Below are positions 16,688-40,217 of a DNA stretch of 43,845 nucleotides, in pieces. The stretch is from positions 1 to 43,845 of the IMG/VR virus record IMGVR_UViG_3300028284_000016; one strand, 5' to 3'. The translations under genes were made by a program, and so were the position numbers. Origin of the DNA: a virus. The first letter of the stretch is position 1, and every line of letters begins with the position of its first letter. Below the pieces are notes generated by a model. It did no database searches. It had not been told where the DNA came from and saw only the letters and a program-made list of their open reading frames with translations.

Positions 16688-18250
16688 TTATATCTGAGCT
16701 AAATCAGATACAAAAATCTTACCGTAGAATTCTGGACGAATCATTTTCTTAGCGTAACGAGTCATCAAACCTTTTCTTGGTGTGAAAGATTCTGGATCGT
16801 ATACTAATGGAGTCATCAATAATGGAACGTAAGGAGCATATACAGCACCTGTTTCCAAGAATTGACTACCTCTATAACCCATAAGAACGATGTTCTCAGT
16901 CATATAAGGATTCTTGTACACTTTAAAGCGGTTAGCTAAGCTACCTACTTTTTGTACACCCATTGAGAATTCCATTTGATCACCATCTGTAGCTGCAGCA
17001 TATCCTGGGATAGACTCTAGTACAGTAGCAACTGTTGGAGATACTACTAAGAAATTAGCACCACCTCTTAAAGTTTTTTGGTGAATCTTGTTAGATACTT
17101 TTTGGATTTTAGTTCCTAAAGTTTGGAACCATTGACCTTGAGTATTGTAGAAATCAGAAGTACCAGTTGACCAGTTAGAACCAGTCCATACTTTATTGTT
17201 TTCTGCAGACCAGTGATCAGTAGTTCTAGCACCTAAGATCAACATATCTAAGATCTCTAAATCGATCTCCATAGAGATGTATTCAGATAACAAAGATGTT
17301 AACTCAGCCTCAGCATCAATACTGTGGTAAGCGTTAAGATCTTGTGCAAATTCTGGAGTCCATTGTGCTTTTAACTTTCTAGTCTTAGCTACAATTGCCT
17401 CAGAACTTAACTTAACGTCGATTTCTGGAATACCTAAGTTTTCTACTGCTACTGCTGATGCAGCTTCGTAGTCTCCTCTTGTATTGTCAGTTGGTTGCTT
17501 GTGGAATACTAACGGTAGTGATGCAGCAGCAGTTGCTCCTGTAGCACATAAAAATTCGATTGCATTTCCATTTACTTTAGTGTACTCGTTAAAAGTAGCA
17601 ACACCAGTTAATCTAAAAGCTCTTACACCTTCTACATCAGCAGAAGCTGGTAGTGGTACAGAGATAATGTCATAATCAGCTGGTGATAGACCAACTTCGT
17701 GGTTTATTGATCCAGAAGTTGCTCCTGTAGTAATAGTTGTAGCAGATGCTACTGATGCGTCATTGATTGAGTAACCAAATTGACCTGCACCATACATACC
17801 ACCGCTTACTGCGTTGTCTACAGCAATTTTGCTGTTAGCAGTTGATACGTTTCCGTATAGGTTATCTCCTTCTGCTCTTCCGTTTTTAGTATCTCCATAT
17901 TTGAAGTCTAAATAGAATACTAGACCTGAAGGTAAGTTCATTGGTTGAACTGATACGAAGTCTTGTGCTACGATAGAAGAAAATACTTTTCTTACTAATG
18001 GTAGAGCAACACCTGCCCAAGTTTCACCAGCGCCAGCGCTAAAGCCAGAACCTCCTGATTGATTTACGTTAGCTTCAGCTACGATTTGTTTTGCTTGGTT
18101 TTCCAAGATCATTGCCATGCTAGTTGCATACCTCTTATCTTCGATCCCCTCTAACAAACCAGAAGCTTGCCATTTATCTGCTAATTTAGCAGAGTCAGCC
18201 ATCATACTTTTGTAAGTATTCGAGCTTTCTAATAGGTTGTTAATTTCCAT
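16688..18250 (-). CDS. Major capsid protein, T4 gp23-like
   Basis: A 520-residue protein close in length to T4 gp23 (521). The N-terminal ~60 residues are a helical propeptide with protease-type sites (NLLE at 5-8, LLE at 32-34, ILE at 48-50, VAE at 57-59 followed by ANVNQSGG). After it come the gp23 core motifs, including LPLVRKVFSSIVAQDFVSVQPMNLPSGLVFYLDFKYG. The C-terminus (residues ~460-520) matches the end of gp23-type HK97-fold shells. In T4 the prohead protease removes ~65 residues, and a similar cut near E59 is expected. The gene follows the scaffold by 26 bases with no promoter element between them and ends at a strong terminator. Confidence 0.93.
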   Translation of the reverse strand: MEINNLLESSNTYKSMMADSAKLADKWQASGLLEGIEDKRYATSMAMILENQAKQIVAEANVNQSGGSGFSAGAGETWAGVALPLVRKVFSSIVAQDFVSVQPMNLPSGLVFYLDFKYGDTKNGRAEGDNLYGNVSTANSKIAVDNAVSGGMYGAGQFGYSINDASVASATTITTGATSGSINHEVGLSPADYDIISVPLPASADVEGVRAFRLTGVATFNEYTKVNGNAIEFLCATGATAAASLPLVFHKQPTDNTRGDYEAASAVAVENLGIPEIDVKLSSEAIVAKTRKLKAQWTPEFAQDLNAYHSIDAEAELTSLLSEYISMEIDLEILDMLILGARTTDHWSAENNKVWTGSNWSTGTSDFYNTQGQWFQTLGTKIQKVSNKIHQKTLRGGANFLVVSPTVATVLESIPGYAAATDGDQMEFSMGVQKVGSLANRFKVYKNPYMTENIVLMGYRGSQFLETGAVYAPYVPLLMTPLVYDPESFTPRKGLMTRYAKKMIRPEFYGKIFVSDLAQI

Positions 18251-18276: not shown

Positions 18277-19383
18277 TTATTTTATAATACCTGCAAGTTT
18301 TTGCATTCTACGAACTGTATCAGATACTTCTGAGATTACCTCTCTTGAAGCAGTTGTTCCAGTAGCTTTAGATGCAAGCCCTTTAATTTTTGATTCTGCA
18401 ACGTTTCCTTTTTTCGTAGTAACTACATTTTCAGAAACTGTTTCGAATACTAACTTAACTTCTTTTACTGTTTCAGCTTTATCAAAAGCAGCAATGATGT
18501 TAACTTTTTGAGATTCAGCCAAATTGCTTGACTTGAAAATTTTGTTTACATAAAGAAGTTTAGAATTTAATAAGTTCACTTCTTGTAGGTCTACTCTCAA
18601 TGTCTCAATTGTTGTTAGAGCATCTTTTAAGTCTTCCTTAAGAGTTCTGTTAATATTCTTTTCTTTAGTATCACTTTCAGCAGGAACTTCTACAGCAGTA
18701 TCTTCAGTTACAGACTCGTCTTTTTCGTCTTCGTCTTTGTCTTCTGATACAACTCCTTCTAGTTCTCTTAAAAGTTCGTCAAGATCGATTTCATCGTCTT
18801 CAGCTTCTGGTTCAGCTCCTAATTCTGGTTCCATTCCTGGTTCTTCAATTGGTGCTTCGTCTCCCATGCCTTCGATATCACCGCCATCCATATCCATTCC
18901 AAGTTCCTCTTCACCGTCTCCGGCTCCAACTTCTTGAGCGATTATGTCTCTGATCATATCTTTAAACTGGTCAACAGAAAGTTTAGATAAATCTTCGTCT
19001 CCGTCGATTTCTTCTTCACCTTCTACTTCTGCTTCTGGTGCAATGTCTTCTATCTCTTCTTCACCGGCTTCAGCAGGAGCTTCGTCTTCAGATTCTTCTG
19101 AATCATCCTCTACTTCTTCTTCTTCGGTTGTGAATTCTTCCTCTATTGCTTCTTCTTTTTTATCTTCGTCGTAGTTTCCTTCTTCTATCTCTTCTTCGAC
19201 TTCGTTTACTACAGCTTCATCTTTGGAATCTTTATCTTCCATTTCTTGAAGTTTTGCAGCTAACATGTCTTTAAGATGAGGAGTTAAAGTCTCTTCTAAA
19301 GCTTCTTTAGCGTTTGCAATAGCGGCTTCACGGACAGATTTTGCTTCAGCAATTGCTTGCTTGAACATTTCTTTGTTTGCCAT
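18277..19383 (-). CDS. Prohead core scaffolding protein, T4 gp22-like
   Basis: A 368-residue protein. The N-terminus MANKEMFKQAIAEAKSVREA contains a prohead-protease-type site (IAE|A at 11-13) of the same wording as the T4 internal-protein leader. Residues ~55-240 are extremely acidic and low in complexity. The C-terminal region has the gp22 signature LRVDLQEVNLLNSKLLYVNKIFKSSNLAESQKVNIIAAFDKA, with an LAE|S site. Such scaffolds form the prohead core and are degraded by the protease at maturation. The position directly before the capsid gene and after the protease gene matches T4 order. Two CTATTTAT-type elements precede it. Confidence 0.85.
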   Translation of the reverse strand: MANKEMFKQAIAEAKSVREAAIANAKEALEETLTPHLKDMLAAKLQEMEDKDSKDEAVVNEVEEEIEEGNYDEDKKEEAIEEEFTTEEEEVEDDSEESEDEAPAEAGEEEIEDIAPEAEVEGEEEIDGDEDLSKLSVDQFKDMIRDIIAQEVGAGDGEEELGMDMDGGDIEGMGDEAPIEEPGMEPELGAEPEAEDDEIDLDELLRELEGVVSEDKDEDEKDESVTEDTAVEVPAESDTKEKNINRTLKEDLKDALTTIETLRVDLQEVNLLNSKLLYVNKIFKSSNLAESQKVNIIAAFDKAETVKEVKLVFETVSENVVTTKKGNVAESKIKGLASKATGTTASREVISEVSDTVRRMQKLAGIIK

Positions 19384-20129: not shown

Positions 20130-20708
20130 TTATGCTCTTAGAATATCGTTAATGATAGCGTCTAATGTACTGTAGTTTATAGCTTGTGTTTTACCCTCTT
20201 GTAATTGTATTGGGTTCATAAAAGCTCCGTGGGTGGAAGGATTAGATACAAAATCCCAGCATACTAATTCAAAGTCTTGCTGAACTTCTAATGTTCCTTC
20301 GTTTGTTTGGTTTACTGAGCCTGTACCTCTAGATGAGATTCCAATTGTATGACCAGCTTTAATAATTTCTTTAACTATATTACCTGATGGTGTATTAAGT
20401 AGTTCAACACGTCCCATAAGGTCGTTTCCTTTCCACCATAAGTCTTTTACTATATGAGAAGCATTCTTTAAAGAGACTACAGGAGATTCAGGGTGATCAA
20501 GTTCTCCGAAAGCATTTCCGTTTTTAACAAACTCTGTTATGTATTTCTTTGCCTCTCTTTCTAAAATAGCCTTAGAATAAACTCTACCGTTTTGATTCTC
20601 TGCTACTGCTCTCTGCATTACACCTTCTACTTCGAATACTCCAGGTCTCCCTTTAGCTTCTCTAAGTATAGATTTAAACGGTGTAACATTTAATAGTAAT
20701 TGTTGCAT
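20130..20708 (-). CDS. Prohead core protease, T4 gp21-like (S80 family)
   Basis: A 192-residue protein with the gp21 landmarks GVFEVEGVMQRAVAENQNGRVYSKAIL, the catalytic-His region GELDHPES (H72) and the catalytic-Ser region IGISSRGTGSV (S125/S126), then DFELVCWDFVSNPSTHGAFM. Gp21-type serine proteases reside in the prohead core and cut scaffold, capsid and internal proteins after (I/L)-x-E. The protein's own N-terminus contains SILRE|A (E17), a plausible self-processing site. It lies 3 bases downstream of the 703-residue gene and 17 upstream of the membrane-protein gene, in T4-like order between portal and scaffold. Confidence 0.93.
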   Translation of the reverse strand: MQQLLLNVTPFKSILREAKGRPGVFEVEGVMQRAVAENQNGRVYSKAILEREAKKYITEFVKNGNAFGELDHPESPVVSLKNASHIVKDLWWKGNDLMGRVELLNTPSGNIVKEIIKAGHTIGISSRGTGSVNQTNEGTLEVQQDFELVCWDFVSNPSTHGAFMNPIQLQEGKTQAINYSTLDAIINDILRA

Positions 20709-20711
20709 GTT

Positions 20712-22823
20712 CTAGATATTTGGTGTATATACTGTTTGTTTAGGCTGTTCTTCTATTTCTGTTTCACCTAATGGTTTTTGACCTGAGTTATGTGCGTCAA
20801 TTTCTGCTTGAGATACTGTACGTACTTTAGGTAGTTCTGTTTTATTTAAGAACCCTCTTTTAGTAACTGGTCTAAGGTCTTTTTTAAATGCTGCTTCTAA
20901 AGAAGGTGCTATAAATGCTCCTATCTTTAATCCTTCTCCATTTGTAAAATCCGCTGTCTTAGCGAATGTTTTAGCTATCTTCTCACCAATCTTATCATAA
21001 AAAGATTCTACCTCTGTTACAATATTTTCCAGGTCATGTACGACTGATTTCACGCCGCTAAAGTCAGCATAAGTCTCTCCCCAACCAGATAGTTCAGCTG
21101 TTGCTGCTTCATTCAATACTTGCTCTTCTAATACTTTAGAGATTATTGCTTTTAGGTTGCTTTTAACCATTGCTTCATTCTTTCCGGAGGCTTTCTTAAT
21201 AGCCTTATCTTTTGCTGCCATATAATCATCTTTGTCAACGTCTCCGTCTCCATCATGATCTTTACCTTTCTTTTCGTCTAGTTCTTCTTCTCTTAGTTTG
21301 TGCCATCCTGTATTATCACAATGGTCACATCCTGAGCCGTCGCATTCTGGGCATATATCTTCTGGGTCTGGTCCAACAGATTCTGCTAAAGACTCTTCTA
21401 ATTTTTGATCTATATAAGATACTACATCTGATTTAGCATGAGGAATCATTCCAGGTTCTGTCATAGGACCTTCTTTCCATTGCCCAAAGGCTATGATTAA
21501 TTTGTCTACTGCTTTATCGAAATCAGGGCCCATAGATTCAACATATCCTCCAGTTTCATAATCATTCTCTGTTACGATCTTTCCACCTTGGGTTTTCTTA
21601 CGTCTTCCTTCTTGTAGTCTTTCTGATCTACGTACATATCCTTCTTCTGCTTCTCTTACTGGGAATACTCCTTCGAATAGGTCAGATAAAGATTGTTTTA
21701 ATGCGGCTCTAAATTTCTTTAGGTATTCTAATGCTTCTTCTTTATTCCCTGCTTCTACAGAATCAATCATATAAGATAGACTTTCTCCTTCTCTATGGTA
21801 ATTTACATCTTCAAAAGAACTAAAAAGTTTTTCTAGTTTATCTAATGGAGTATTAATTCTTACTTTAAGTCCTGCTTTCATCATTCCTTCGTAATCGAAG
21901 TTTGAAGAAAAATGGTCTCCTAATTTATAAGGTGTAATTTCATCTCCCTTACCGTAGTTTTTAATATTGTCCATCTCTTCATCAGACATTGCTTCTCCTA
22001 TACTGTCTCTGTTAATATCCTCAAACTCATTATAGTTCATCCAAATATCTTGCTCATCACTACAGTCAATATCTCCTGAGAATATATCTTCTTTGTGAGT
22101 TCTTATGAAGCTTAATGCATCGTCTAAGTTTACTTTATATCCTTTTTCGTCTCCTGTAATAGTTAAAGCATCAATGACTTTTCTCATTGCCATCTTTCTA
22201 TCGTGGTTAGAAGCTCTAACTCCATACTCTTTACCGTCGTCTCCTATTTTAGTTTGACCTGGTTCGGTTGGTATTGGTTCTGCTTCAAAAAGTTTCTTTT
22301 CTTTTATTGTTTGAATAGCTGCTTCTATTTGAGCTTCTGTGTAGCCTTCTTTTAGAGCTGCTTTCTTTAATCCATTAAATGAGTCTACATCTGCTGCGCC
22401 TCTTTTAACTTCTTTAGATTGATCGTTCTTATCTACTTTACTAGACTCACCTGATAAAAGGTTAAGGTAGTGTAGAGGGTCTTTGCGGAGGTTTTTAATA
22501 GCTAATGCTTTTGCTTTAACTACTGATTCATCTGGTGTGTCGAACTCATAAGTATCGATTCCCATGACTTTCATTTCTATTCTCATACCTCTTCTAATAG
22601 CTTCATCGGAAAAACCATAAGAGACATTATTATCGTCTTTAGGTAGAGCGGCTGATTCAAAAAGTAGGCCTTTGTTCTTAAGAATTTGTACACTGTCGTT
22701 GAATCCATTAAACTGTGTAATATGCTGAGGGAATGTTTGACGCATTTGTCTAACGAATTCCTTCGTAGTCATATTACCTTCGTTAACGGCTCTTAGTTTC
22801 TCTGTAGCTGTTAGTTTTCTCAT
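20712..22823 (-). CDS. Large prohead-associated protein with many protease-type sites (703 aa)
   Basis: No known whole-length family. The protein contains at least seven (I/L)-x-E sites followed by small residues: LLFE|SAAL, LKE|GYTE, LFE|AEPI, LFE|GVFP, LQE|GRRK, LEE|SLAE|SVGP and VLNE|AATA. A DnaJ-type zinc-binding motif CPECDGSGCDHCDNTGW lies at ~500, followed by an EF-hand-like loop DHDGDGDVDKDDY. Acidic stretches and a helical C-terminus complete it. The position between portal and protease corresponds to T4 genes 67/68 (core proteins). It is best read as a core or internal polyprotein cut during head maturation. Starts overlap the 62-residue gene by one base. Confidence 0.6.
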   Translation of the reverse strand: MRKLTATEKLRAVNEGNMTTKEFVRQMRQTFPQHITQFNGFNDSVQILKNKGLLFESAALPKDDNNVSYGFSDEAIRRGMRIEMKVMGIDTYEFDTPDESVVKAKALAIKNLRKDPLHYLNLLSGESSKVDKNDQSKEVKRGAADVDSFNGLKKAALKEGYTEAQIEAAIQTIKEKKLFEAEPIPTEPGQTKIGDDGKEYGVRASNHDRKMAMRKVIDALTITGDEKGYKVNLDDALSFIRTHKEDIFSGDIDCSDEQDIWMNYNEFEDINRDSIGEAMSDEEMDNIKNYGKGDEITPYKLGDHFSSNFDYEGMMKAGLKVRINTPLDKLEKLFSSFEDVNYHREGESLSYMIDSVEAGNKEEALEYLKKFRAALKQSLSDLFEGVFPVREAEEGYVRRSERLQEGRRKKTQGGKIVTENDYETGGYVESMGPDFDKAVDKLIIAFGQWKEGPMTEPGMIPHAKSDVVSYIDQKLEESLAESVGPDPEDICPECDGSGCDHCDNTGWHKLREEELDEKKGKDHDGDGDVDKDDYMAAKDKAIKKASGKNEAMVKSNLKAIISKVLEEQVLNEAATAELSGWGETYADFSGVKSVVHDLENIVTEVESFYDKIGEKIAKTFAKTADFTNGEGLKIGAFIAPSLEAAFKKDLRPVTKRGFLNKTELPKVRTVSQAEIDAHNSGQKPLGETEIEEQPKQTVYTPNI

Positions 22824-25819: not shown

Positions 25820-27397
25820 CTATTTTAATAACCAGGAGATGTCCTCTTGTTGACCTCGTCCATTATCAATAAGATACGGATTATTAATCGAACTACCAAC
25901 GTTTTGTATGATTGCTTTATTACGTGCATTCATATTACCAAATGAAGATAATTGAGCCCTAGCTAAGTCCATACCTTGTTGCTGTAAGCGTAGAGCTGTG
26001 TCTCTAACATATAGAGCGGTTGCAAAGGATATTATAAGGTCATCATTATATCTTGTCTGAGCTTGAGCTTTACCGTTCTTCCAAACAAATACTCTCATCT
26101 CTCCTGTAAGTCTTTTAGATTGAATAGTAACTGAGTGCTCTCTAATGTATTCAATCATTTTAGCAATTACCAAAGGACGTGTTCTCATTGACATTGTAAA
26201 GCCAGGAACTAATTTATCTCTTTCGTATTTGTTCATATAAGATTCTACTGTCTCCATGTTAGAAGTAGCACTGTAGTAAAGGTTCTTATATTCTCGCTCC
26301 ATTATCTGTTCTATAGTAGCCCATCCAATATTTGCGTTTTCACATACCAGTAATGCGTCGTTATATTCTGATGCTATTCCTACTAATACGTTACCGAAAT
26401 CTTTAGGTGATATCTTACCTTTATATTCTCCTACCTGTACACAGTTAGCTATATCCATAATATGGAATGCAGAATAATCCGTAGAATCCCCACGAGCTAC
26501 ATCGGCAACGACCATATAAGACTTAGTATAATCTACTCCCTCCCATATCCATAAGTTACCATCTACTCCTCTTCTCTCTAAAGGTTCTTTTAAGTACGAC
26601 TGTTCGTAGAATGCCATATCATCTGTATCAAATACAGTATCTCCAGAAGCTAAGAAATCACAATCACATTCCTGTCCTGCCATCTTAGGTCCTAAATCTC
26701 TATCTTGTTGAGCTCTCCATGATTCGTCTCTTTCTGGATGTACAGTCCAAGGTAGTCTTATAGGTAGAAAACTATTTTCTCCTGTCTCTGCTTTTTCCCA
26801 TGTCTGATGAAACCAGTTACCAATTCCGTTAGGAGTTGATAAAGCCATACATTGTCCACCCGTTGCTAAGGTTTGTTGTGCAGCTGTAAACGTCTCTTCA
26901 ATGTTATCAATAAAGGCTGCTTCATCGATAAGTAATAAAGATACTGCTTCTGATCGTGCTGCATCTGCGTTAGAAGATTTAGCTGTGATTTTAGATCCAT
27001 TTTTAAGTCTTAAAGATAGTTTGTTTTTTTCTACCGCTGGTAATTTTAACCATTTAGGTAGTTCATCATACATAAACATTGTCTTCGTAACTAAGTTACG
27101 TGCTGTTGCTTGTGTAGTTGCTAATGCCAAGACGTTTTTATCTTTATGAAACAACATTAACCAAAGTGAATAGCCAGCTGCTAAGGTAGAAATACCTAAC
27201 TGTCTAGACTTTAATGTGATAAGGAATTGATGATCTCTAAATAAATGTAATACTTTATCTTGAAATGGGTAAAGATTAAACAATATCCGTCCTCTAGTAG
27301 GATGCTGTATATAGCAATACTTCCTCATGAAGTATACCGGATCTTTAGCACACTTAATATACTCTTGTGCTATTATTTTCTTTATATTTTGAGCCAT
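25820..27397 (-). CDS. Terminase large subunit, T4 gp17-like
   Basis: About 525 residues from the ATG at 27397. An in-frame ATG at 27436 would add 13 residues but overlap the upstream gene by 32 bases, whereas 27397 lies 7 bases after that gene's stop and is preferred. The packaging ATPase has a Walker A-type LKSRQLGIST (62-71 of the short form) and Walker B LLLIDEAAFI (D158/E159). The nuclease domain begins with MVVADVARGDSTDYSAFHIMD, which supplies a metal-binding Asp, and continues with LVCENANIGWATIEQI. It cuts concatemeric DNA and drives it through the portal, whose gene follows directly. No gp16-like small subunit is recognisable upstream. Confidence 0.93.
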   Translation of the reverse strand: MAQNIKKIIAQEYIKCAKDPVYFMRKYCYIQHPTRGRILFNLYPFQDKVLHLFRDHQFLITLKSRQLGISTLAAGYSLWLMLFHKDKNVLALATTQATARNLVTKTMFMYDELPKWLKLPAVEKNKLSLRLKNGSKITAKSSNADAARSEAVSLLLIDEAAFIDNIEETFTAAQQTLATGGQCMALSTPNGIGNWFHQTWEKAETGENSFLPIRLPWTVHPERDESWRAQQDRDLGPKMAGQECDCDFLASGDTVFDTDDMAFYEQSYLKEPLERRGVDGNLWIWEGVDYTKSYMVVADVARGDSTDYSAFHIMDIANCVQVGEYKGKISPKDFGNVLVGIASEYNDALLVCENANIGWATIEQIMEREYKNLYYSATSNMETVESYMNKYERDKLVPGFTMSMRTRPLVIAKMIEYIREHSVTIQSKRLTGEMRVFVWKNGKAQAQTRYNDDLIISFATALYVRDTALRLQQQGMDLARAQLSSFGNMNARNKAIIQNVGSSINNPYLIDNGRGQQEDISWLLK

Positions 27398-27404
27398 AAC
27401 TTTT

Positions 27405-28481
27405 TTAGAATACGTACCACCATCTAGGTAGTCCATCTTTCATTTGTACTTTAATTTTCGTTCCAGCTAAATCTGATAGTGCATCTGCAGCTATTTTTAT
27501 GAATGAACCTGAACTATCGTCAAGAAATAGTACCTCTTCGAATTTATCTAATATAACGTATAAATCAATTACTTTCTTTCCAAATACTACTTCTAGCTTA
27601 TCTGCATCGATAGTGTTTCCACTTTTAAATGATGATAGATTAAAATCTGTAAAGTCAATACCTCTATATAGTCTCTTAATTATAGAGTCCATGATATCAA
27701 TTGCTGAATCTACTTTACTGCTGTCTACTGTAGCAACTGCTTCTAGTATTTTATTTAACCTATGGAATGGTCTATTACCTTTAGTCTGAACTTCGAGTTG
27801 TTGACCTACTAAGCTGCTAATTTCTTTAATAGCGTCTGCAATCATTACGCCTGCTGTTGCTTTGCTAAATTCAGCTTTTTGGCCCATTGGTATTGCTCCG
27901 CCGTTTTTAACTTCAATTCCTTTCTTTCCTACACCGACATCTCCATGAATTGGATCTCCATGTACATCTCCTACAAGAGTACAGAGTAAGACTTCTCCTT
28001 TACCAGTTGCAATATTACCCATTGATGGTTTAGTATTAAGTAGGTAAGAAATTGTCTCAGCAGATATAAATTTTTCGAATGCTGTCTTAAGGTTACCTGA
28101 GGCTCCTAAGCCGTCGTAGGTAATAGGTGTTCCTGTTATATAAGCGTGGAATTTCTGAATGTCTCCATTCTCTACAAATTCATTATATATTTGTTTACTT
28201 ATAGAAGTTACTGCTTTACCTTTTTTGTTTAGGTAATCCATTACTTCCTGTTTATAAGCTACTCCGGAAATACCGCTAAGTATGTTCTTGAGTTGTTGAG
28301 GTGTAAACTCTCCTATCTTAATAGCATTAATAACTTCATCTTTAGTAATTTGACCATCTGCTGCGCCTAATTCCTTTAAAAGAGATTCTAATATTGCTTT
28401 GTCTTCAGGATTGTTCATATCTGGAGTACCGTTTTTAGTTCTCCATGCCCACTCTGTATATAGTTTATCTGTAACGTTCAT
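27405..28481 (-). CDS. Putative PD-(D/E)XK-type nuclease-like protein upstream of terminase
   Basis: A 358-residue protein. The region GKGEVLLCTLVGDVHGDPIHGDVGV-GKKGIEVKNGGAIPMG (~160-200) has the spacing of a PD-(D/E)XK core: G-K-G-E, then D, then E-V-K-N. A similar G-K-G-E...I-E-[IV]-K-x-x-G-G pattern occurs in proteins of other marine T4-like phages. The N-terminal ~100 residues are helical with an EF-hand-like DGQITKDEV; the C-terminal half is helical. It sits immediately before the large terminase, where a small terminase could be expected, but I see no small-terminase features. Nuclease activity is an inference from the motif alone. Confidence 0.5.
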   Translation of the reverse strand: MNVTDKLYTEWAWRTKNGTPDMNNPEDKAILESLLKELGAADGQITKDEVINAIKIGEFTPQQLKNILSGISGVAYKQEVMDYLNKKGKAVTSISKQIYNEFVENGDIQKFHAYITGTPITYDGLGASGNLKTAFEKFISAETISYLLNTKPSMGNIATGKGEVLLCTLVGDVHGDPIHGDVGVGKKGIEVKNGGAIPMGQKAEFSKATAGVMIADAIKEISSLVGQQLEVQTKGNRPFHRLNKILEAVATVDSSKVDSAIDIMDSIIKRLYRGIDFTDFNLSSFKSGNTIDADKLEVVFGKKVIDLYVILDKFEEVLFLDDSSGSFIKIAADALSDLAGTKIKVQMKDGLPRWWYVF

Positions 28482-29566
28482 TATGCTTCTGGTTCTTCAG
28501 TTTCGTCTTCGAAATCAATTTCTTCTCCTCCTAAATCAGCTGGTGCTTCATCTCCTCCTCCGCCGTCTTCTGCTCCAAAGTCCTCTTCTCCACCTTCAGC
28601 TCCTCCATCTCCTCCAGGGAAGTCTCCTCCTCCACCTCCTCCGCCGCCGGAATCAGTATCAGGTGCTTCACCTTCTCCAGCTCCACTCATCGGTGCTTCT
28701 TTATAAAGGATAGATAGCTTATCAAGTGCTTGTTGGTACTCTGATATTACAGATAAAGAGTATCGTTTACCCATAATTTGAGCTTCGAAAGTTTTACCTG
28801 TCCACTTTAAGATATAGTCTTGTCCGTTTTTAAGGTTAACTCTAAATGAAGATGGTCTAGGTGAGATCCAATCAATAGAATCTACAAATTCTTTAAAATC
28901 TTCTGTCTGTAATTTTATTAAAGCTGCTTTAACAGTAGGAAATTTAGCTAATATAGTATCAGTAGAATCTTCTAAAACTGTCTCTGGTGCTGCATCTGTA
29001 TCTGGTTCTTCTTCTGGTGCTGGTGCTTCATCTTCTTCTGCTTCTTCTAATTGTTGCCAAAGAGACTCTTCTTTTAATAGTGATGTATGAGAGTAAATCA
29101 GTTCTACTGACTCGTTGATATCTTCAGATATTCTTCTCATTTTCATGAGTTCGTATTGATCTGGTCTCTCTATTCTTAAATACCTTTGTAGTTTTCTAAA
29201 GTTAGTCTTAATTAATTCAAAAAGCTCTCTAGCATTTTTATCTTGTCTAATATCTGGAGAGTTCATTAAGTTTCTAATGTCAGATATTAATGAAGTAAAG
29301 TTAGAGTATAACCCTTCAAATGAGGGTAATTTTACTACTGTATGACCTATATTACCTGTAGTTTTATCTACCGAAGTTGTCTTAAAGTATGTTTGCATAT
29401 CAGAAGATACGAAATCCTTTTCAGGCCATTTAGAAACTCCGTATCTTTTTTCGATACTATCTCTAAAGGCTTTTGGAAGTTCTTCTAAGCCATATGTGCC
29501 TTTCTCTTTCTCTTCTTCTCTTAGTTCAGAAAATGCTTCTAGTATAAGTTTCTCTAATTTATGCAT
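28481..29566 (-). CDS. Putative internal head protein with capsid-targeting-like leader (361 aa)
   Basis: The start MHKLEKLILEAFSE carries the shared leader with a candidate cut at ILE|A (E10). Further protease-type sites are INE|S (~153) and LEE|A (~174), which flank an acidic Pro/Ala/Glu linker. A folded middle domain (~205-300, FRVNLKNGQDYILKWTGKTFEAQIMGKRYSL) follows. The C-terminus is an acidic tail of polyglycine and Glu/Asp. No enzymatic motif is seen. It lies 3 bases after the 1126-residue gene and overlaps the next start by one base. It is best read as a processed, packaged core protein. Confidence 0.58.
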   Translation of the reverse strand: MHKLEKLILEAFSELREEEKEKGTYGLEELPKAFRDSIEKRYGVSKWPEKDFVSSDMQTYFKTTSVDKTTGNIGHTVVKLPSFEGLYSNFTSLISDIRNLMNSPDIRQDKNARELFELIKTNFRKLQRYLRIERPDQYELMKMRRISEDINESVELIYSHTSLLKEESLWQQLEEAEEDEAPAPEEEPDTDAAPETVLEDSTDTILAKFPTVKAALIKLQTEDFKEFVDSIDWISPRPSSFRVNLKNGQDYILKWTGKTFEAQIMGKRYSLSVISEYQQALDKLSILYKEAPMSGAGEGEAPDTDSGGGGGGGGDFPGGDGGAEGGEEDFGAEDGGGGDEAPADLGGEEIDFEDETEEPEA

Positions 29567-29569
29567 ATC

Positions 29570-32500
29570 TTATTTTTTAGGGCATCCAGAACTCTTCTTA
29601 TGAGTAGTTCCGCATCCGCCGCAATATGTTGCTTTATCTTCGTTTATATCAGCATCTAATTCAAACTTCTTAAATTTATCTACATCGTTGATATTTTTAA
29701 TATGAACTCTTTTGCCGTCTTTATCTAAACCGTATACTTTAGAACCATCATTTCCAGGCTTCTTAAGTTCTGCTTTTGCTCTACGTTTAGATACTGATGA
29801 AGACATTCCTAAATCTTGTCTAGTAGCTTCACTAACTCTTTTTCCTAATCCAGGTAAGTTTCTTAAGTCTTGTACGTACTCATCTGTTTTAACTAGAATA
29901 GTACCTAATACTTCTTTTTCTTCTTTATCACGTCTATCTGCTGCTTTCTTAGTAATCTTAAATAATGTAATTTTAGATACTCCAGGATTAAAGTCTGGGT
30001 CTGTATCTTTGAAGTTACTGTTATAGTATTGTGTTTGATGCATTCTATAGTATTCACCTTCATGCTCTAATTCATGGTATTGAACGTGAACAAACATTGG
30101 TGCATACTGTTTCATTCTAGCTTTGATACCACTCGCATCATGTTTCTTTAAAGCTTCAATTGCATTGTTTTCACTAGCTACTCCTTTAGGAAGTAAGTCG
30201 GCAAATATCTGCTTACCAAACATATCAGGCCCTCTTTTATTAGCATCGTCGATTAGTTCTGAACCTTTAAATGAATTGTCTGTAAATTCTTTTAGTATTT
30301 TATTTTCATTTACTCCATCAAAATCTCTTTGTTTCAAAGCTGCCATAATAGCATAAACAGCATCTTGCTCTTTATAGTCATACCTTTTAGCCATTGCTTT
30401 GATGAATTGAGCTACTTTTTTAGATACTTCTGGGTTAAGGCTTTCTTTTATGACTCCTTCATCGTAAGCATCTATCATATAAGCATCTCTCAATGCCTCT
30501 ATAACCTCTAATGCTGCTTCTTTAGTTGTAGTTCCGTCTTCATTAGCCATATCAGTAATTACTCTTACGATAGTGTCTAAATCTCCTCTTCCTTCTTTAA
30601 CTGTAGATTCGTTATATTCATCATCACCAAAGTAAAATCCTAAATTTTCTAATTCTTCATTATCGTACTCTTGTGATAGTTTCTGTTGGAAATCAGATAT
30701 TCCTCCGATCCATTCCATTATTACTTCTACACAGCCAGGATTATCTTCTATAAATTCATCAAATCCTTGTCTGTACCCTATAGCTCCGAATATTTCATCT
30801 AAGTCTCTAGAAGCAGATTCATTGATTGATAATTCTTGATCTCTTCCTGAGCCTGATACTTTATCATCTAATGCTTTTTCTAACTTTTTCTTAGTTATAG
30901 TTAGAGTTTTTAATTGGTCGACTACTGATTTGTCTCCTGCTTTATATTTTTTAGCAAGATCTTTCATTATGCTAATTGTCTGGTCGTAAGATTTTTGTAT
31001 CTTATTTAGAGAAACTTCACTAACAGATTCTAAAGCTAGCTGATCCATAGCAGGTTGCTTTTCATTAGAGTCTAAATAGTGGTATGCTGCTGACATATAC
31101 TCTCTAGCTAAGACTAGTTTCTTTTGCCACCAATGTGGAAAGTCTACTTCACCGTCTTGTTTGTCGTATTTGTCTAGTTTTTTATATAGCTTAGCTGAAT
31201 ACTCTGCTGTTTCCATAGCAGATGATTTTAACATACTAGGCTCATCGTCTTGATGACCCACATCTAAATCTCCTTCACCAGTAGGTGTACCGTCTAACTC
31301 TTCTGATTCCTCTAAATCATTATTTAAGTAGTCATCTTCTTCTCTTCGATAGTCTTCATAATCTGTTTGATCACTCCCTTTTGCAGCGTCTAGTAAATCT
31401 CCTAGCGTTTCATCATTTTCCATTTCTGGGTTATTTAAAGTAACAGCGTTAGGGTGAGTATCTCCTCTTCCTACATGAAGTTCGTAATCTTGTTCTGAGT
31501 AATTAGTTTTTAAGTAGTGTACTACGTACTCTATTTCATCTAAGTCAAATCCGAAAGTAAATAAACTGTCATCATCAAAACTTTCATTAGCTTTACCGAC
31601 AGCTGTATCGTAATCCATAGATTTTCTGCCTCTTGCTTTTTCAAGTGCAGTATCTATCTTGTTTAACATGTCTCCATATTTGTCAGCGATAGGTCCTCCT
31701 TGTGGTTCTGCCTCTTGCTCCATGTCTCTCATCACTTGAGCTCTTTTAGCTTCAAGTTTATCTATGATTGCTTTTACCTTAGGAGAGGTACCGGTATTCT
31801 TTTTATAGTTTGGATTAATTTTTAATCCAGCTTTTTTTATTTTATCAAGCTGTTTCATTTGTCTTCCGTGTTGGTTAATGCTACGAATCTTCATAGCCCA
31901 ATCGCTATTGTCTGCTTCTTCACTCATTACTTTACCGTAACGTGAATTTGAAGTGAGAGTTAAAGATTCTGCTAATTCATCCATATCATCTACATCATGA
32001 CTCATTCCAGTCATTTCTATATCGTTGGCTCTTAAGTCCATTACTACATCGTATAGGAATGATTCCGGATTCTCATCTGGTTCTTGATAGAATTCTGAGT
32101 CTTGATTTTCTGAGTCATCATACATATCGTCAAACCCATCTTCATGTCTAAAGTTAAAATAAACGATAACGTTTCCGTCTCCGTCATTATCAACTATATC
32201 CATCTTAACATAAGTTGGGTCAATATTAGAATTTAAAATATCCATTGCCTTCTTATATTGATGGCTAGGAAATTTAATATATGTAGTTTGGTGAGGTGCT
32301 TCGTTTACTTCTGATTCTCGTAGATTAGCTTTGATTGCTCTTTGAATATTTCCTGCTACTACATCAACATGTAGGATAGCTTCTCCTGAAGGTTGTACTC
32401 CTACTTGCCCTACCATTTTATCAAAGTCTTCATTTTTTAAGTGAAGCCTGTCTTCTTTATCTATAATAAATTCATATATAGACTCTTTACCGTTTTTAAA

Positions 32501-32950
32501 TTCTACGAAGATTTCAAATTTACCCGGTACTATTCGTTTAGCTTTAGAAGAAGATATTCCTTCCCCCATATTCTTTAAAGCTTTAAGAGTTGCCTCTCCT
32601 GCTTTTTTAGCTATAGCCTTTGTTTGTTCCATAGAGATCTGTATATTCTCTTGGATAGTTTCTTTAATTTTTTTTCCTTTAGCAGTCTTAATAGAATCTA
32701 TATCTGTGTTGTTCTTAAGATCTCTAAGTTCTTGTTCATCCTCATAGGAGATAGCTGTTTTGTTGACAAAGGCTGTCTTTTCTTGTTCAAGTACCATTAA
32801 TTGGTTTGAAAGTTCTTCTTTCATTACTTGTAATTGGTTAATAGCTGCAGGTACTTGAGCTTGCGGTAAGGAAGCGTAGTTACCGTTCTGTAGTGCGGAC
32901 AAGGAACGTTCGCACTTACCTAGCTTATCTTTAATTTCTTCGTAGGTCAT
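29570..32950 (-). CDS. Very large putative internal/core polyprotein (1126 aa)
   Basis: No whole-length family recognised. The N-terminal ~150 residues are coiled coil. Several globular segments follow, separated by acidic linkers and (I/L)-x-E sites with small residues after them: LRE|S, LAE|S, LEE|S, INE|S, IKE|S and LKE|F. One segment holds a DNDGDGN acidic loop. The region around HVQYHELEHEGEYYRMHQTQYYNSNF near the end is rich in His/Glu. The last residues CGGCGTTHKKSSGCPKK form a Zn-ribbon-like tail. With the nearby protease, this looks like a head-internal protein cut into pieces. A CTATTTAT element lies 35 bases upstream. Confidence 0.55.
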   Translation of the reverse strand: MTYEEIKDKLGKCERSLSALQNGNYASLPQAQVPAAINQLQVMKEELSNQLMVLEQEKTAFVNKTAISYEDEQELRDLKNNTDIDSIKTAKGKKIKETIQENIQISMEQTKAIAKKAGEATLKALKNMGEGISSSKAKRIVPGKFEIFVEFKNGKESIYEFIIDKEDRLHLKNEDFDKMVGQVGVQPSGEAILHVDVVAGNIQRAIKANLRESEVNEAPHQTTYIKFPSHQYKKAMDILNSNIDPTYVKMDIVDNDGDGNVIVYFNFRHEDGFDDMYDDSENQDSEFYQEPDENPESFLYDVVMDLRANDIEMTGMSHDVDDMDELAESLTLTSNSRYGKVMSEEADNSDWAMKIRSINQHGRQMKQLDKIKKAGLKINPNYKKNTGTSPKVKAIIDKLEAKRAQVMRDMEQEAEPQGGPIADKYGDMLNKIDTALEKARGRKSMDYDTAVGKANESFDDDSLFTFGFDLDEIEYVVHYLKTNYSEQDYELHVGRGDTHPNAVTLNNPEMENDETLGDLLDAAKGSDQTDYEDYRREEDDYLNNDLEESEELDGTPTGEGDLDVGHQDDEPSMLKSSAMETAEYSAKLYKKLDKYDKQDGEVDFPHWWQKKLVLAREYMSAAYHYLDSNEKQPAMDQLALESVSEVSLNKIQKSYDQTISIMKDLAKKYKAGDKSVVDQLKTLTITKKKLEKALDDKVSGSGRDQELSINESASRDLDEIFGAIGYRQGFDEFIEDNPGCVEVIMEWIGGISDFQQKLSQEYDNEELENLGFYFGDDEYNESTVKEGRGDLDTIVRVITDMANEDGTTTKEAALEVIEALRDAYMIDAYDEGVIKESLNPEVSKKVAQFIKAMAKRYDYKEQDAVYAIMAALKQRDFDGVNENKILKEFTDNSFKGSELIDDANKRGPDMFGKQIFADLLPKGVASENNAIEALKKHDASGIKARMKQYAPMFVHVQYHELEHEGEYYRMHQTQYYNSNFKDTDPDFNPGVSKITLFKITKKAADRRDKEEKEVLGTILVKTDEYVQDLRNLPGLGKRVSEATRQDLGMSSSVSKRRAKAELKKPGNDGSKVYGLDKDGKRVHIKNINDVDKFKKFELDADINEDKATYCGGCGTTHKKSSGCPKK

Positions 32951-33426: not shown

Positions 33427-34005
33427 CTAAATTTCAGTACGTAAATTTTTAAGGTACCCTTTCATTTCTTTCATGACCTTCTCTTTATATGCTTGTGGCA
33501 TATCATTCCAATCTTCTACATCTCCTGCTTCTGTTACATATGAACTAGTGCCTTCCATAGCTTCCAATACATAGGCTTCCATGTCATTAGCAAATGCTTT
33601 TAAGTTACCTTGTAGCATTCTCTTTTCATATTGATCGTACAGCCCTACCTTCTTTAAGGTTGCTTCCATAAGTACGGTACATGGGTCAAAACAAAAACCA
33701 TGTATCTTATACATCTTTTTTGCTAAGTGGTGTTTCATTTCACCTCCACAGTTAGGACAAGATAGGGGTACCCTAACAGATTTTTTAGCTTCGTCTAGCT
33801 TGGTAATATTCTGTTTAAGTCCGTCTTTGATAGTCCACTGTTTACCATTCTCTTCCCAAATGTCTCCTTCTGAGTATCTTATCTGTTGTTTTTGGTATCC
33901 GGTTTGTTGCTTTGTAGAAGAAGTAAAGTCCTTATTGACTATGTTTCTTACTCTTTGTACATCGCTTTGCTTAAACTCTTTCTTTAGTAAACTTTCGTTA
34001 CTCAT
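33427..34005 (-). CDS. Zn-ribbon protein of unknown function (192 aa)
   Basis: The centre contains LSCPNCGGEMKHHLAKKMYKIHGFCFDPC, a C-x2-C...C-x3-C metal site with extra His residues. Gln/Lys-rich polar segments precede it and a helical, acidic C-terminus follows (NDMEAYVLEAMEG, VMKEMKGYLKNL). Proteins with this C-P-x-C-x-G...K-K-M-x-x-x-H pattern are found in marine T4-like genomes next to structural genes. No catalytic residues are evident, so it may bind nucleic acid or another phage protein. It overlaps the HAD gene by 8 bases. Confidence 0.58.
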   Translation of the reverse strand: MSNESLLKKEFKQSDVQRVRNIVNKDFTSSTKQQTGYQKQQIRYSEGDIWEENGKQWTIKDGLKQNITKLDEAKKSVRVPLSCPNCGGEMKHHLAKKMYKIHGFCFDPCTVLMEATLKKVGLYDQYEKRMLQGNLKAFANDMEAYVLEAMEGTSSYVTEAGDVEDWNDMPQAYKEKVMKEMKGYLKNLRTEI

Positions 34006-34546
34006 AACCTAGCTCTTTTAATTTTTCGATAACATGATTCACATCACCGTTTTTACATCTTATTGCTATTCCTCCTTTTGCAGCCCACTCATCTATATTA
34101 GACGGTTTGTCGTCTATAAGAATAGAATTCTCGTTTGCATACCTTTGCTTTGCTTTTGAATATGCAAAGATGACTTTTGGTTTAGGGTTAACATTATTCT
34201 TAACCCAAAGGTTTTTCCCGAGTCTAGAGTTGTTATGTCTAGAGGGAGAAGTAAGTAAATCAGGTTGATATGGTTTAATAAAATCCCAAAGCTGTTGTCC
34301 AGCTGGCATCCAATCCATTCCTACCCAAAATTTAACTCCTACTGTATTATCTATTAACTCCCAGAATGCTGGTGTTCCTTTTTCTTTTTCGTATACTTGG
34401 GGATTCATCCCCGTATAGTGTTCAAATCTACTTTCAAAATCTGTTAGTACTCCATCCATATCACAATAGATCTTATACGGAGGTACTTCTTTTTTCTCTG
34501 CTAAAGGGTAAGCCTCTAGCAATTCTACTAAACTTTTTTGTTTCAT
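33998..34546 (-). CDS. HAD-superfamily phosphatase / 5'(3')-deoxyribonucleotidase-like
   Basis: A 182-residue protein. HAD motif I is YCDMDGVLTDF (D29, D31), motif II is LLTSPSRH, and the motif III/IV region is ENSILIDDKPSNIDEWAAKGGIAI. The layout matches the small 5'(3')-deoxyribonucleotidase-like HADs that dephosphorylate (deoxy)nucleotides. An N-terminal extension, MKQKSLVELLEAYPLAEKKE, precedes the fold and has an (I/L)-x-E site (LLE|A at 9-11), so the enzyme might be packaged and trimmed like other leader-bearing proteins here. It overlaps the nucleotidyltransferase gene by four bases. Confidence 0.75.
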   Translation of the reverse strand: MKQKSLVELLEAYPLAEKKEVPPYKIYCDMDGVLTDFESRFEHYTGMNPQVYEKEKGTPAFWELIDNTVGVKFWVGMDWMPAGQQLWDFIKPYQPDLLTSPSRHNNSRLGKNLWVKNNVNPKPKVIFAYSKAKQRYANENSILIDDKPSNIDEWAAKGGIAIRCKNGDVNHVIEKLKELGYE

Positions 34547-36399
34547 AACCTTTGTTTAATGCCTAACTTTGGAAGGCGTTTATTCCACAATATACGAATT
34601 TTTTTACGGTTCTCCAACTCTACGCCAGCTTTTTCAAAGTAATCTTCTACTACATCAGCGAAAGGAGTCCTAGATTTTTTAGCTTTAAAATACATTCCTT
34701 GTATCATGGCATCAACTTCTTTCGGGAGTTGATAATATTCATCTTTATCCATTACACCCATATCGATCATACCTCTTACTAGAGCATCATCTTCTATATA
34801 CTTACCGGGTTTAACGTTTTCTCCGTCTTGAGTTAAGTGCTCTAACTCATGTCTTACTACATCCTTAAGGTCAAATGATACTTCTTGCCAGTCGGGGTTC
34901 TTTTGTATTTTAAATTTAACGTTTAGCATTGGTTGAATTTCATCTCCGTCATCATCGAAACCAGCGTTTGCTCCTCCGTCTACACTATATGTGTCTTCTG
35001 TAAACTCTACTACTCCTAAGAAGTCAAATTCAAACTGTGAAGAAGGAATATCTACTTCTGGATCTTCTGGGTTACCTACTCGGAATTCAAACTCTCCTCC
35101 TTTGTCTCCTCTATCGTGGATGTCTATAAAAGTTTCTAGTGCTAATCCAGATAACTTATTTGCTAATTTGTCGTATTTACCTTCTGCCATAACCGTTTCA
35201 TTTGTTTCCTCTTTCTTCATTGCTTTTCCTGCAGCTTCTGCATCCTTATGAGCTTTCGAATTACCGTGAGATGGTTTCTCTCCTCTTTTCTTTTTAGCAT
35301 TTATATTGGCCCATAGTCCAGGTTTCTTTGCTTCAGAGGTGTTCTTATAACTGTCTTCCCAGTTTCTAAATGTTATGTTACCAACTAGGTATGCTTCTTT
35401 CTCTAATTCTAATAGAGCGTCGTCAGCTGTTGTGTCTGATGTTTGAATGTTTCCTAATCTATTCTCTATGTTTTGAATATGGTGAACCATTTCATGAGTA
35501 AAAGATCTACATATGTCTTTAGGGTGTCTACCGCTTACATATAGTACTATTTCTTTACTGTTTGGATCGTAATGAGCTGTCTTTCCGAAGAAATCTTTAG
35601 CATTCTCTTCATCATATCTAACTTTAACTTCAGGTAGAGGTTGAATATTCATATCCTGGTCTAACATATACTCTAATATAGATCCAATATACTTAGTATA
35701 TTCAGGTTTACTATTAAGGGCAGATTCTTTCTCTATTTCTGGAGTTGTATCTTCTGCAAAATACTCTGATAGAAATCCATTTATGTTATTACTTATTACT
35801 TCGGCAACTATCTTTTCTTTTAAATTTGATAGAATACCTAATATTTGGTCTTTAGTTAGTTCCTTAGGGAAAAAATCAACAATAGTGTCTAAGTTACCTG
35901 AGAGTATACTCTTTCTAAAGTTTGTTGCTCTAACTCCGGAATCATTAGCTGTTGTTACTGCTAATCCTTTCACATTAGGAGTATTTTTAAATGTAGTTAC
36001 CCTCCTTAGGTCTACAAAATCTTCTTCACCTCTTAAGCCTGTTACTGCTACAAACTCTTCATCAGGGTTTGCTTTAGCCCAATCTTTAGCAGCAAACATA
36101 GGGTTCTTTTGACCGTCTATAATTTCTACATTAGATAGGTGTTGAGCATATATCTCCCATATCTTAGTAGCTTCTTGTTTATCTATTCCGTTTCTTTCTC
36201 CTCCTCCTACAAATATTAGTACTTTATCTATAGATGGTTTACCTTCTGGTCTACCTTTTAATAGAGATGTTGCTTTTTCTTTGAAATCTGTTATATCATA
36301 AACTGTTCCATTGTAGGAACCATCTAATAAAGATTTTACTACATTAAAATGTCCTCTATGAGGTGGTTTATATGCTCCGGGGTATAGTGCTGTTGCCAT
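34543..36399 (-). CDS. Fusion: NMNAT-like nucleotidyltransferase + two HExxH metallopeptidase-like domains
   Basis: A 618-residue protein. Residues 1-~185 form a nucleotidyltransferase of the NMNAT/cytidylyltransferase type: LYPGAYKPPHRGHFNVV with H-x-G-H at 14-17, and an ATP-site TTANDSGVRATNFRKSIL analogous to the S/T-x-x-x-[RK] motif. Around 300 the sequence RSFTHEMVHHIQNIE has HExxH (302-306) with downstream LELEKEAYLVGN as a likely third ligand. A second HExxH occurs in VVRHELEHLTQDG (517-521), followed by LPKEVDAMIQGM. A Lys-rich linker (~355-400) separates the two. The fusion suggests nucleotide/NAD metabolism combined with proteolysis. It overlaps neighbours by 1-4 bases. Confidence 0.72.
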   Translation of the reverse strand: MATALYPGAYKPPHRGHFNVVKSLLDGSYNGTVYDITDFKEKATSLLKGRPEGKPSIDKVLIFVGGGERNGIDKQEATKIWEIYAQHLSNVEIIDGQKNPMFAAKDWAKANPDEEFVAVTGLRGEEDFVDLRRVTTFKNTPNVKGLAVTTANDSGVRATNFRKSILSGNLDTIVDFFPKELTKDQILGILSNLKEKIVAEVISNNINGFLSEYFAEDTTPEIEKESALNSKPEYTKYIGSILEYMLDQDMNIQPLPEVKVRYDEENAKDFFGKTAHYDPNSKEIVLYVSGRHPKDICRSFTHEMVHHIQNIENRLGNIQTSDTTADDALLELEKEAYLVGNITFRNWEDSYKNTSEAKKPGLWANINAKKKRGEKPSHGNSKAHKDAEAAGKAMKKEETNETVMAEGKYDKLANKLSGLALETFIDIHDRGDKGGEFEFRVGNPEDPEVDIPSSQFEFDFLGVVEFTEDTYSVDGGANAGFDDDGDEIQPMLNVKFKIQKNPDWQEVSFDLKDVVRHELEHLTQDGENVKPGKYIEDDALVRGMIDMGVMDKDEYYQLPKEVDAMIQGMYFKAKKSRTPFADVVEDYFEKAGVELENRKKIRILWNKRLPKLGIKQRL

Positions 36400-37331
36400 T
36401 ATGCTAAAAAGGATTGTAAGTCTCTATCTATTTCTTGAGGAGTTGAATGAGCTAACTTTTCTTGAAATTTAGGATCGTATAACATATCTACTATATTATC
36501 CATAACTTCAACATGTTTTCCATCATTCTTCTCTTTTCTATCTCTATACTTCGTTATTGCGTCTTTTAGTTTATCAGCTCCAGGTCCTGCTCCGTTTTTC
36601 TGATAAGCTTTTATAAAGGCATTCTTTATAGCTTTATCCTCAGATCTATTGTTAGTATCCCAATTAATACCTGTTGTAGCTTTTTTAAACTCTTGCTCTT
36701 CTTCATCATTCATTTCAACTGGAGAGAAAAATGTTGAACCTCCTACTCCATGCTTAGTATTATATTTCTGCAAGTAATCTTTTAGTCCTTGAGTTCCGTT
36801 TTTTGCTGCTGTATCAAATCCTTCGACTTCTTTTGCATATTTACCTCCTCTATCACTAACGTGAACGGAAAGATTACCGCTTAGCATTTTATCATACTCT
36901 CCAATCAATTGATAGACATTACGCCAGGTAGAGAATACTGCTGGTCCGGGTATACTTCTATCTGATCTACTAAAGTTAGATATGTAAGAAATCATAGGAT
37001 GAGTATACACCATTACCATATATACTTTATACCCTGCATTTAAGATATCTTTTACCTTAGAAGCATTAGAAGCTGTCGTATCCCAAACGAAACTAGTTTT
37101 TTCTTCGAGGGCTGCTGCTACGTCTTTGTTGGTTTGAGCTGCTGCTGGTCCTAGTTTGTTGTGGTATGGATGATTGGGATCCTCTACGTATTTGTCTGGG
37201 TTGAACTGTTCTAGGCTGTCTAGGGACAATTGGTTTAATAGGTGTGACTTGCCTGACCCTGCTCCCCCTGCCATTACCACTGCTTTCGGGGCGTTGGTAG
37301 ACTCTAGGATTAGTTCTGATAGTTTTATCAT
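36399..37331 (-). CDS. Zeta-toxin-like P-loop kinase with capsid-targeting-like leader
   Basis: A 310-residue protein. The leader MIKLSELILEST fits the shared M-(I)-K-L-x-x-L-I-L-E pattern with a candidate cut at ILE|S (E10). It is followed by the strand APKAVVMAGGAGSGKS, with Walker A at 22-29. Zeta-toxin/PNK-type landmarks are FNPDKYVEDPNHPYHN, FVWDTTASN and the lid region SRSDRSIPGPAVFSTWRNV. Zeta toxins phosphorylate UDP-sugars; related phage kinases act on nucleic acid or nucleotides, so the substrate is open. The C-terminal half is helical and charged. The first 79 codons overlap the 3' end of the lipoprotein gene by 239 bases in another frame. Confidence 0.72.
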   Translation of the reverse strand: MIKLSELILESTNAPKAVVMAGGAGSGKSHLLNQLSLDSLEQFNPDKYVEDPNHPYHNKLGPAAAQTNKDVAAALEEKTSFVWDTTASNASKVKDILNAGYKVYMVMVYTHPMISYISNFSRSDRSIPGPAVFSTWRNVYQLIGEYDKMLSGNLSVHVSDRGGKYAKEVEGFDTAAKNGTQGLKDYLQKYNTKHGVGGSTFFSPVEMNDEEEQEFKKATTGINWDTNNRSEDKAIKNAFIKAYQKNGAGPGADKLKDAITKYRDRKEKNDGKHVEVMDNIVDMLYDPKFQEKLAHSTPQEIDRDLQSFLA

Positions 37332-40152: not shown

Positions 40153-40157
40153 AATAC

Positions 40158-40217
40158 TTAATCGTTTCCGCATCCACAGTTACCACCGCATCCGCATTCG
40201 TCGTCTTTTATATTCAT
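40158..40217 (-). CDS. 19-residue Cys-rich microprotein
   Basis: ATG at 40217, TAA at 40158; the translation is MNIKDDECGCGGNCGCGND. The start overlaps the stop of the 84-residue gene as ATGA, and the stop lies 5 bases before the next ATG, so the short frame fills exactly the space between two genes. The C-x-C-x3-C-x-C spacing could bind a metal. No family is known to me; the evidence is architecture and coupling only. Confidence 0.45.
   Translation of the reverse strand: MNIKDDECGCGGNCGCGND

Follow-up and report, generated by a model that had tools for sequence, protein, structure and literature searches.

A shuffled modular protein of a T4-like virus with gp21-type cleavage signatures at its seams: a candidate polyprotein of internal head proteins

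The viral record IMGVR_UViG_3300028284_000016, taken whole as a window of 43,845 bases, carries on its minus strand a real open reading frame (ORF) for a 1126-residue protein, as an initial annotation of the sequence had claimed. We propose that this gene encodes a polyprotein that is matured by a gp21-type prohead protease and carries several small proteins into the prohead, a reading to which the sequence comparisons lead us to give a probability of roughly 0.6. The protein is a chain of modules joined at seams that bear a hydrophobic residue, any residue and then Glu (hxE), usually with a small residue following; judged by its sequence, this signature is the L/I-X-E rule of T4 gp21. The protease-cleavable chain first described is well supported by hxE at the seams in three data sets, by a Peptidase S77 gene nearby and by modules that occur as separate genes. 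The protein has no Pfam domain at E ≤ 0.01 and one PHROG match (phrog_23411, residues 464-530, function unknown).

All six sites on which the initial annotation rested are present (LRE212↓S, LAE328↓S, LEE548↓S, INE711↓S, IKE836↓S and LKE888↓F, the arrow marking the proposed cut), and junctions of the same kind occur at VNE217↓A, ANE456↓S, ALE641↓S, YNE781↓S, VKE786↓G, VSE1041↓A and INE1104↓D, with VLE55↓Q probably a further one. The claim of a consistent E-S junction stood in part: Glu at P1 (before the cut) with L, I, M or V at P3 is conserved, whereas E-S is too narrow, since P1' (after the cut) is mostly A or G across relatives, with E, D, Q, S, T, F and Y also occurring. Within the single chain, [LI].ES (the dot standing for any residue) is found 5 times against 0.82 expected from 5000 composition shuffles, 0.08% of which reach 5, the pattern being post hoc. 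Chance in one acidic protein would accommodate the count of [LI].E[SAG] in the chain alone (5 against 2.55 expected, p 0.10, not significant), and the ES dipeptide alone gives 10 against 6.3 (p 0.09); this explanation is contradicted by the breakpoint tests in relatives described below, and we regard it as very improbable. The evidence is modest from the single sequence and strong with the relatives included.

Related chains were found at 51 loci when viral contigs were scanned, and the best isolate relative was gp079 of the cultured Flavobacterium phage immuto (host Flavobacterium LMO8). One ORF from each locus, together with the window and immuto chains, made up 53 chains (39 nonredundant), among which L051, L052 and L053 are other genes bearing one or two modules. 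Pairwise matches among the chains are broken and permuted. Window residues 712-784 correspond to 1224-1296 in L013 (93% identity) and residues 783-836 to 961-1014 in L014 (81% identity), while in L007 the equivalents of residues 782-1102 precede those of 708-773 and 647-722. The 39 nonredundant chains yielded 26 module families in 65 distinct ordered adjacencies, M01 having 7 different modules before it and 6 after it. Of 30 chains whose start is intact, 27 begin with M03, M05 or M11; of 38 whose end is intact, 31 finish with M04 or M13. The Zn-ribbon-like end noticed initially (CxxC-x3-H-x5-C) proved to be a conserved terminal module, M04, which closes 23 of the 38 nonredundant chains whose 3' end is intact. 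As read from these alignments, the chain is a constant N-terminal part, a variable middle and a constant end, with modules that change order, come and go, and are exchanged with other genes. An S77 protease was found in 20 of 45 records of relatives (15 of the 18 of at least 25 kb), and the carriers of the chain are a group of T4-like viruses of aquatic bacteria.

The module table was kept out of the motif tests because its borders were cut at Glu. Breakpoints were instead taken as alignment ends, without use of the motif, and the null was obtained by rotation. Between the window chain and 38 relatives, 90 of 172 alignment endpoints lay within 6 residues of its ten ES dipeptides (1086 rotations: mean 19.0, maximum 61), and 41 of the 172 were near the six sites listed initially (rotation mean 11.4; reached in 7 of 1086 rotations). 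Across the 39 chains 101 of 148 [LI].E[SAG] sites were near breakpoints, against a rotated null of 47.1 (standard deviation 5.7); the controls gave 15 of 78 for [LI].D[SAG] (null 25.6), 30 of 107 for [LI].K[SAG] (null 34.9) and 171 of 587 for [LI].[^E][SAG] (null 193.9). With each of the 20 residues placed at Z in [LIV].Z, Glu gave 344 of 576 (null 186.1, z 14.4) and the next best residue z 2.8; residue scans at the seams gave L, I, M and V as best at P3 and A and G at P1'. The [LI].ES subset showed no enrichment near breakpoints in the 39 chains (17 of 42, null 14.6); we take many of these sites to be copies of an LKES that is conserved within the N-terminal part.

Among 15 divergent chains [LIV].E[SAG] was near breakpoints at 47 of 92 sites (null 21.6, z 6.4; reached in 0 of 400 rotations), and controls with D, K or Q were at or below the null. 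The window encodes a second modular multi-site protein, of 703 residues; in a set of this type (24 nonredundant of 35) the count was 60 of 142 (null 30.8), and in an immuto-like set (20 of 45) [LIV].E gave 81 of 194 (null 46.9). Comparison of the three sets therefore indicates that Glu with a hydrophobic P3 is general and that a small P1' is not.

Certain module edges are kept when their neighbours differ, namely hxE↓GRGD, hxE↓(F/Y)TD and hxE↓(A/S)GPGF, and the right edge of M01 reads LALE or LALQE before varied following modules. Junction serines are encoded by TCA, TCT, AGT and AGC, and the constraint is therefore on the protein rather than on a DNA repeat; on these grounds we discounted the idea that the seams arose from repeated DNA. 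The junction Glu codon is GAA at all 15 listed junctions (86 GAA to 19 GAG overall). The portion of PMC9026906 drawn on here describes T4 gp21 as cutting after L/I-X-E and the core proteins as cut into several pieces. The T4 gp23 site LTE65↓A aligns with VAE↓A in the window and VSE↓A in immuto, so that V at P3 suits this lineage. These results bear on a different explanation, an uncleaved multidomain virion or polyvalent-type protein in which hxE is only a preferred linker or recombination seam. Shuffling by itself requires no cleavage, E-rich linkers are common, and polyvalent proteins show domain mosaicism (PMC5512222, in the part available). Such a protein is nevertheless hard to reconcile with the behaviour of Asp, Lys and Gln in the divergent set, with P3 and P1' preferences that match gp21, with junction codons that differ and with a protease gene nearby, and we consider it improbable.

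Structure was predicted with AlphaFold2 from an alignment of 28 sequences, mostly co-linear rows; an alignment of 104 fragments was misaligned and was discarded. The chain model (mean predicted local distance difference test score (pLDDT) 63.6, predicted template modelling score 0.27) suggests separate folded pieces with loose links. The acidic linkers between folded segments anticipated by the initial annotation were recovered, with five of its six sites in predicted segments of pLDDT <50 (rotation mean 2.0, maximum 5), as were 12 of 13 junctions picked as breakpoint-supported (mean 4.3, maximum 8) and 7 of nine [LIV].E[SAG] sites (mean 3.0). The sites are thus predicted to lie between folded parts, where they would be accessible. 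Modelled on its own, M01 forms a helical hairpin whose core mostly scores above 90. M02 is ferredoxin-like (VIA-align best Z 9.4, 84 residues, 3.0 Å) and residues 108-211 resemble CapZ (Z about 7), both of them common arrangements. Foldseek of the whole model against the PDB gave no match at E ≤ 0.001; weaker likenesses, such as that to phage SPO1 Acb4 (Foldseek E 0.12, root-mean-square deviation about 10 Å), were rejected as evidence of function.

Modules also occur in other genes, both in the 703-type chain and in smaller genes with M02, M09, M15 and M21. M15 resembles a 76-residue protein of Cellulophaga phage phiST (Foldseek template modelling score 0.73 by target length, 35% identity; tblastn E 2e-4), whose gene is one of a series of small genes that run opposite to the annotated virion structural genes; this series could be an early region. 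Residues 423-471 of the 703-residue chain match a 75-residue immuto gene product encoded beside the immuto protease (59% identity), which begins MENNFDIHKWQAKFLKE↓S. M13 matches part of cyanophage proteins in 29 phage records, several annotated as possible cytidyltransferase. Mass spectrometry has found cytidyltransferase or NMNAT-like proteins in cyanophage virions (relevant parts of PMC10665884 and PMC9602691), which may be other proteins than those bearing M13. No isolate-phage match was found by tblastn for M02, M06, M07, or M10 with M09. Pfam over 32 chains gave three weak single-member matches only and no embedded peptidase domain, although a fold without sequence similarity could escape this search. 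A Prochlorococcus phage P-HM2 protein (L143:3422-4738) is also made of small modules, with an M13-like stretch, a DVDNDGDVDSSDKYLHKKRK stretch and a GLYANIHAKRKRGE stretch; it starts MKSLSDFTKKSKVAE↓A, and the chain principle may extend to cyanophages.

The main alternative is a prohead core (scaffold-like) protein chopped by gp21, whose pieces leave the head as do those of T4 gp22, gp67 and gp68 and whose modules are space-fillers or core organisers. Cleavage of the T4 core proteins yields several fragments, most of which leave the head (PMC9026906, in the section concerned), and T4 gp22 has 8 [LI].E[SAG] sites in 269 residues, many of them E-S. The chain is also acidic (isoelectric point 4.8, net charge -65), and it is the sister 703-residue chain, with nine [LI].E[SAG] sites, that occupies the gp67/gp68 place in the gp20-gp21 interval, the gene for the 1126-residue chain lying upstream of gp17. 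The 703-type relatives carry M10, M22, M25, M18, M02 and M13 and exchange modules with 1126-residue-type chains. Several features count against a core protein: sites are sparse in the 1126-residue chain (0.44 [LI].E[SAG] per 100 residues) and lie where domains meet, its conserved folded modules also exist as separate genes, and many modules are swapped, which would be odd in a core builder. We think this alternative unlikely.

In the polyprotein mechanism that we favour, the gene would yield a chain of about a dozen small domains whose constant N-terminal part would bring it into the prohead core. In the window this candidate targeting part is helical, 55 residues long and ends VLE↓Q; in immuto, by alignment, a 9-residue start, MKKLIRIVE↓A, replaces it. 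After shell closure the gp21-type serine protease, whose H, S and D catalytic positions are conserved in the window gp21 aligned with that of T4, would cut after hxE at the junctions, a step we infer because the junction signature matches the protease rule. Inside the head, one chain would thereby become many small proteins, each of about 6-18 kDa. Some of these may stay with the DNA and enter the host; this is the weakest step, and retention and ejection are inferred by analogy with the T4 internal proteins. Each junction would bear its own cutting site, so that modules could be inserted, lost or reordered by recombination without spoiling release, which may be the reason for the shuffling observed. 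A more specific form of the idea, which we hold tentatively and at rather less than even odds, is a cassette array: small effector domains, drawn from a pool kept in flux by recombination and each closed by its own gp21 site, would be inserted between an invariant core-targeting head and an invariant tail, and one late gene would deliver a dozen separate early-acting proteins per virion.

Several observations weigh against the polyprotein reading. Breakpoints are so dense (817 in the 39 chains) that about one third of random sites count as near one, and the chains in the breakpoint tests share ancestry. In the 703-type set the control [LIV].K[SAG] was enriched too (33 of 81, null 17.7), and in the immuto-like set [SAG] at P1' was not enriched ([LIV].E[SAG] 10 of 32, null 7.6). 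Low pLDDT is partly due to shallow alignments. No module has a recognised function, and several are strongly acidic (net -25, -23 and -16), unlike DNA-binding cargo. The literature examined holds no cleavage or virion data for the window virus or immuto, and immuto is not named in the part of a Flavobacterium paper (PMC7077304) drawn on here.

Short leaders were also seen on other proteins. Six window genes start with them (19568-20113, 28481-29566, 33998-34546, 36399-37331, 39721-40173 and 41284-41745), examples being KLANIILE↓D, KLEKLILE↓A, KSLVELLE↓A, KLSELILE↓S, KLRSIIFE↓G and KYKDSIIE↓S; they resemble T4 capsid targeting sequences, perhaps by chance. One of the leader-bearing proteins is a Zeta-toxin/kinase-like P-loop protein and one is deoxyribonucleotidase-like. 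In immuto (L134-L141 and L054; positions 1803, 25061, 103806, 111675, 117631, 118632 and 125241) related N-terminal leaders stand on otherwise different proteins, in the families MENFDLKKFLVENKLTxNSxLLKE and MKKQILSEQFKRMQFLAGIITE. RMQKLAGII, part of the MKKQILSEQFKRMQFLAGIITE leader, recurs where gp22-like scaffolds end at their C-terminus (11 of 12 distinct contexts), which hints at a shared core-binding motif.

Genes of the window lie mainly on the minus strand and include T4-type head genes, which are listed with the module map in Table 1.

Table 1. Module map of the 1126-residue chain and positions of the associated genes in the window.
Feature	Position	Strand	Remarks
Chain protein ORF	29570..32950	minus	1126 residues from ATG; coordinates include stop
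Residues 1-55	32786..32950	minus	Constant helical N-terminal part (M05 or start of M03); candidate core-targeting propeptide
Residues 56-212, M03	32315..32785	minus	Conserved N-terminal domain; pLDDT about 90 over 107-212; ends LRE212↓S
Residues 213-328, M02	31967..32314	minus	Ferredoxin-like fold over 218-319; junctions VNE217↓A, LAE328↓S
Residues 329-456, M08	31583..31966	minus	Ends ANE456↓S
Residues 457-548, M15	31307..31582	minus	Free-standing 76-residue gene in Cellulophaga phage phiST; ends LEE548↓S
Residues 549-641, M01	31028..31306	minus	Helical hairpin; commonest module; ends ALE641↓S
Residues 642-711, M06	30818..31027	minus	Helical; ends INE711↓S
Residues 712-781, M18/M16	30608..30817	minus	Near other chain end in L013, 93% identity; ends YNE781↓S
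Residues 782-836, M10 (GRGD module)	30443..30607	minus	Common to 703-type chain; VKE786↓G, ends IKE836↓S
Residues 837-888, M09	30287..30442	minus	Ends LKE888↓F
Residues 889-1041, M07	29828..30286	minus	Left edge hxE↓(F/Y)TD in relatives with other preceding modules; ends VSE1041↓A
Residues 1042-1104, M12	29639..29827	minus	Ends INE1104↓D
Residues 1105-1126, M04	29573..29638	minus	Zn-knuckle-like C-terminal module
361-residue neighbour gene	28481..29566	minus	Residues 196-316 fused to C-terminal part of immuto chain, 52% identity
Terminase	25820-27436		Among T4-type head genes
Portal gp20	23891-25792		Among T4-type head genes
703-residue second modular multi-site protein	20712..22823	minus	Between portal and protease, the T4 gp67/gp68 place
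Prohead protease gp21	20130..20708	minus	Peptidase S77, PF03420, E 7e-36
gp22-like scaffold	18277..19383	minus	Named by position and composition; C-terminus RMQKLAGIIK; immuto counterpart found
Major capsid protein gp23	16688..18250	minus	T4 cleavage site LTE65↓A aligns with VAE↓ANV

Other features of the window were noted in passing. A 24-base stretch of the chain gene (30986-31009) matches the end of the gp23 gene (16699-16722) in inverted orientation (96%, E 1.3e-4), which may be chance. A 618-residue protein (34543-36399), 35% identical to an immuto protein annotated as NMN adenylyltransferase, has two HExxH motifs (THEMVHHIQ and RHELEHLTQ) and, from the motifs only, is possibly metallopeptidase-like. 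The minus-strand ORFs 36399-37331 and 37093-37938 overlap by 239 bases in different frames, and the latter resembles a lipoprotein (MKKLLIVLLSTVLTGCAS) with a basic, low-complexity end. The 459-residue protein at 41770-43149 has long proline-threonine repeats of the PTATPTP type.

In T4 each internal protein is loaded from a gene of its own. If instead one chain is cut by the maturation protease, many small proteins would be loaded at a set ratio and could be exchanged by recombination; if the cassette array is true, the cargo list could change in this way with the packaging machinery unchanged. Cutting sites at the seams would then show where the uncharacterised small domains of these viruses begin and end, and the modules may include host-takeover or anti-defence proteins. 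The parts are known already, namely gp21 processing, internal proteins and mosaic injected proteins; no description of a swappable multi-cargo chain with a separate protease in T4-like heads was found in the open-access literature.

Compared with the T4 internal head proteins (IPI-III and Alt, with capsid targeting sequences cut by gp21), the window shares T4-type head genes, an S77 protease, hxE sites, a candidate N-terminal targeting part and related genes nearby with short hxE-ending leaders. T4 has one protein per gene, whereas here there are many domains per chain; no sequence similarity was found, and packaging and ejection of the chain's products are predicted. With the T4 core proteins gp22, gp67 and gp68 it has in common several hxE sites, here candidates for gp21, and, through its sister chain, the gp67/gp68 place, and it differs from them in its position upstream of gp17, its sparse sites at domain borders and modules that recur as separate genes. 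Polyvalent proteins are likewise long, shuffled, multidomain phage proteins, likened to polyproteins in the part of Iyer et al. 2017 (PMC5512222) relied on here. The enzymatic and embedded peptidase domains described there were not recognised in the chain, whose presumed protease is a separate gene, and the chain does not show the several disparate, mostly enzymatic domains by which polyvalent proteins are defined. The inner-body and ejection proteins of the giant phages phiKZ, 201phi2-1 and SPN3US are alike in having a gp21-related protease that cuts after Glu, and several sites have been reported for each substrate; most cuts in those phages take off N-terminal propeptides (13 of 14 SPN3US sites, in the section of PMC10052503 concerned), in contrast to the chain of swappable modules proposed here.

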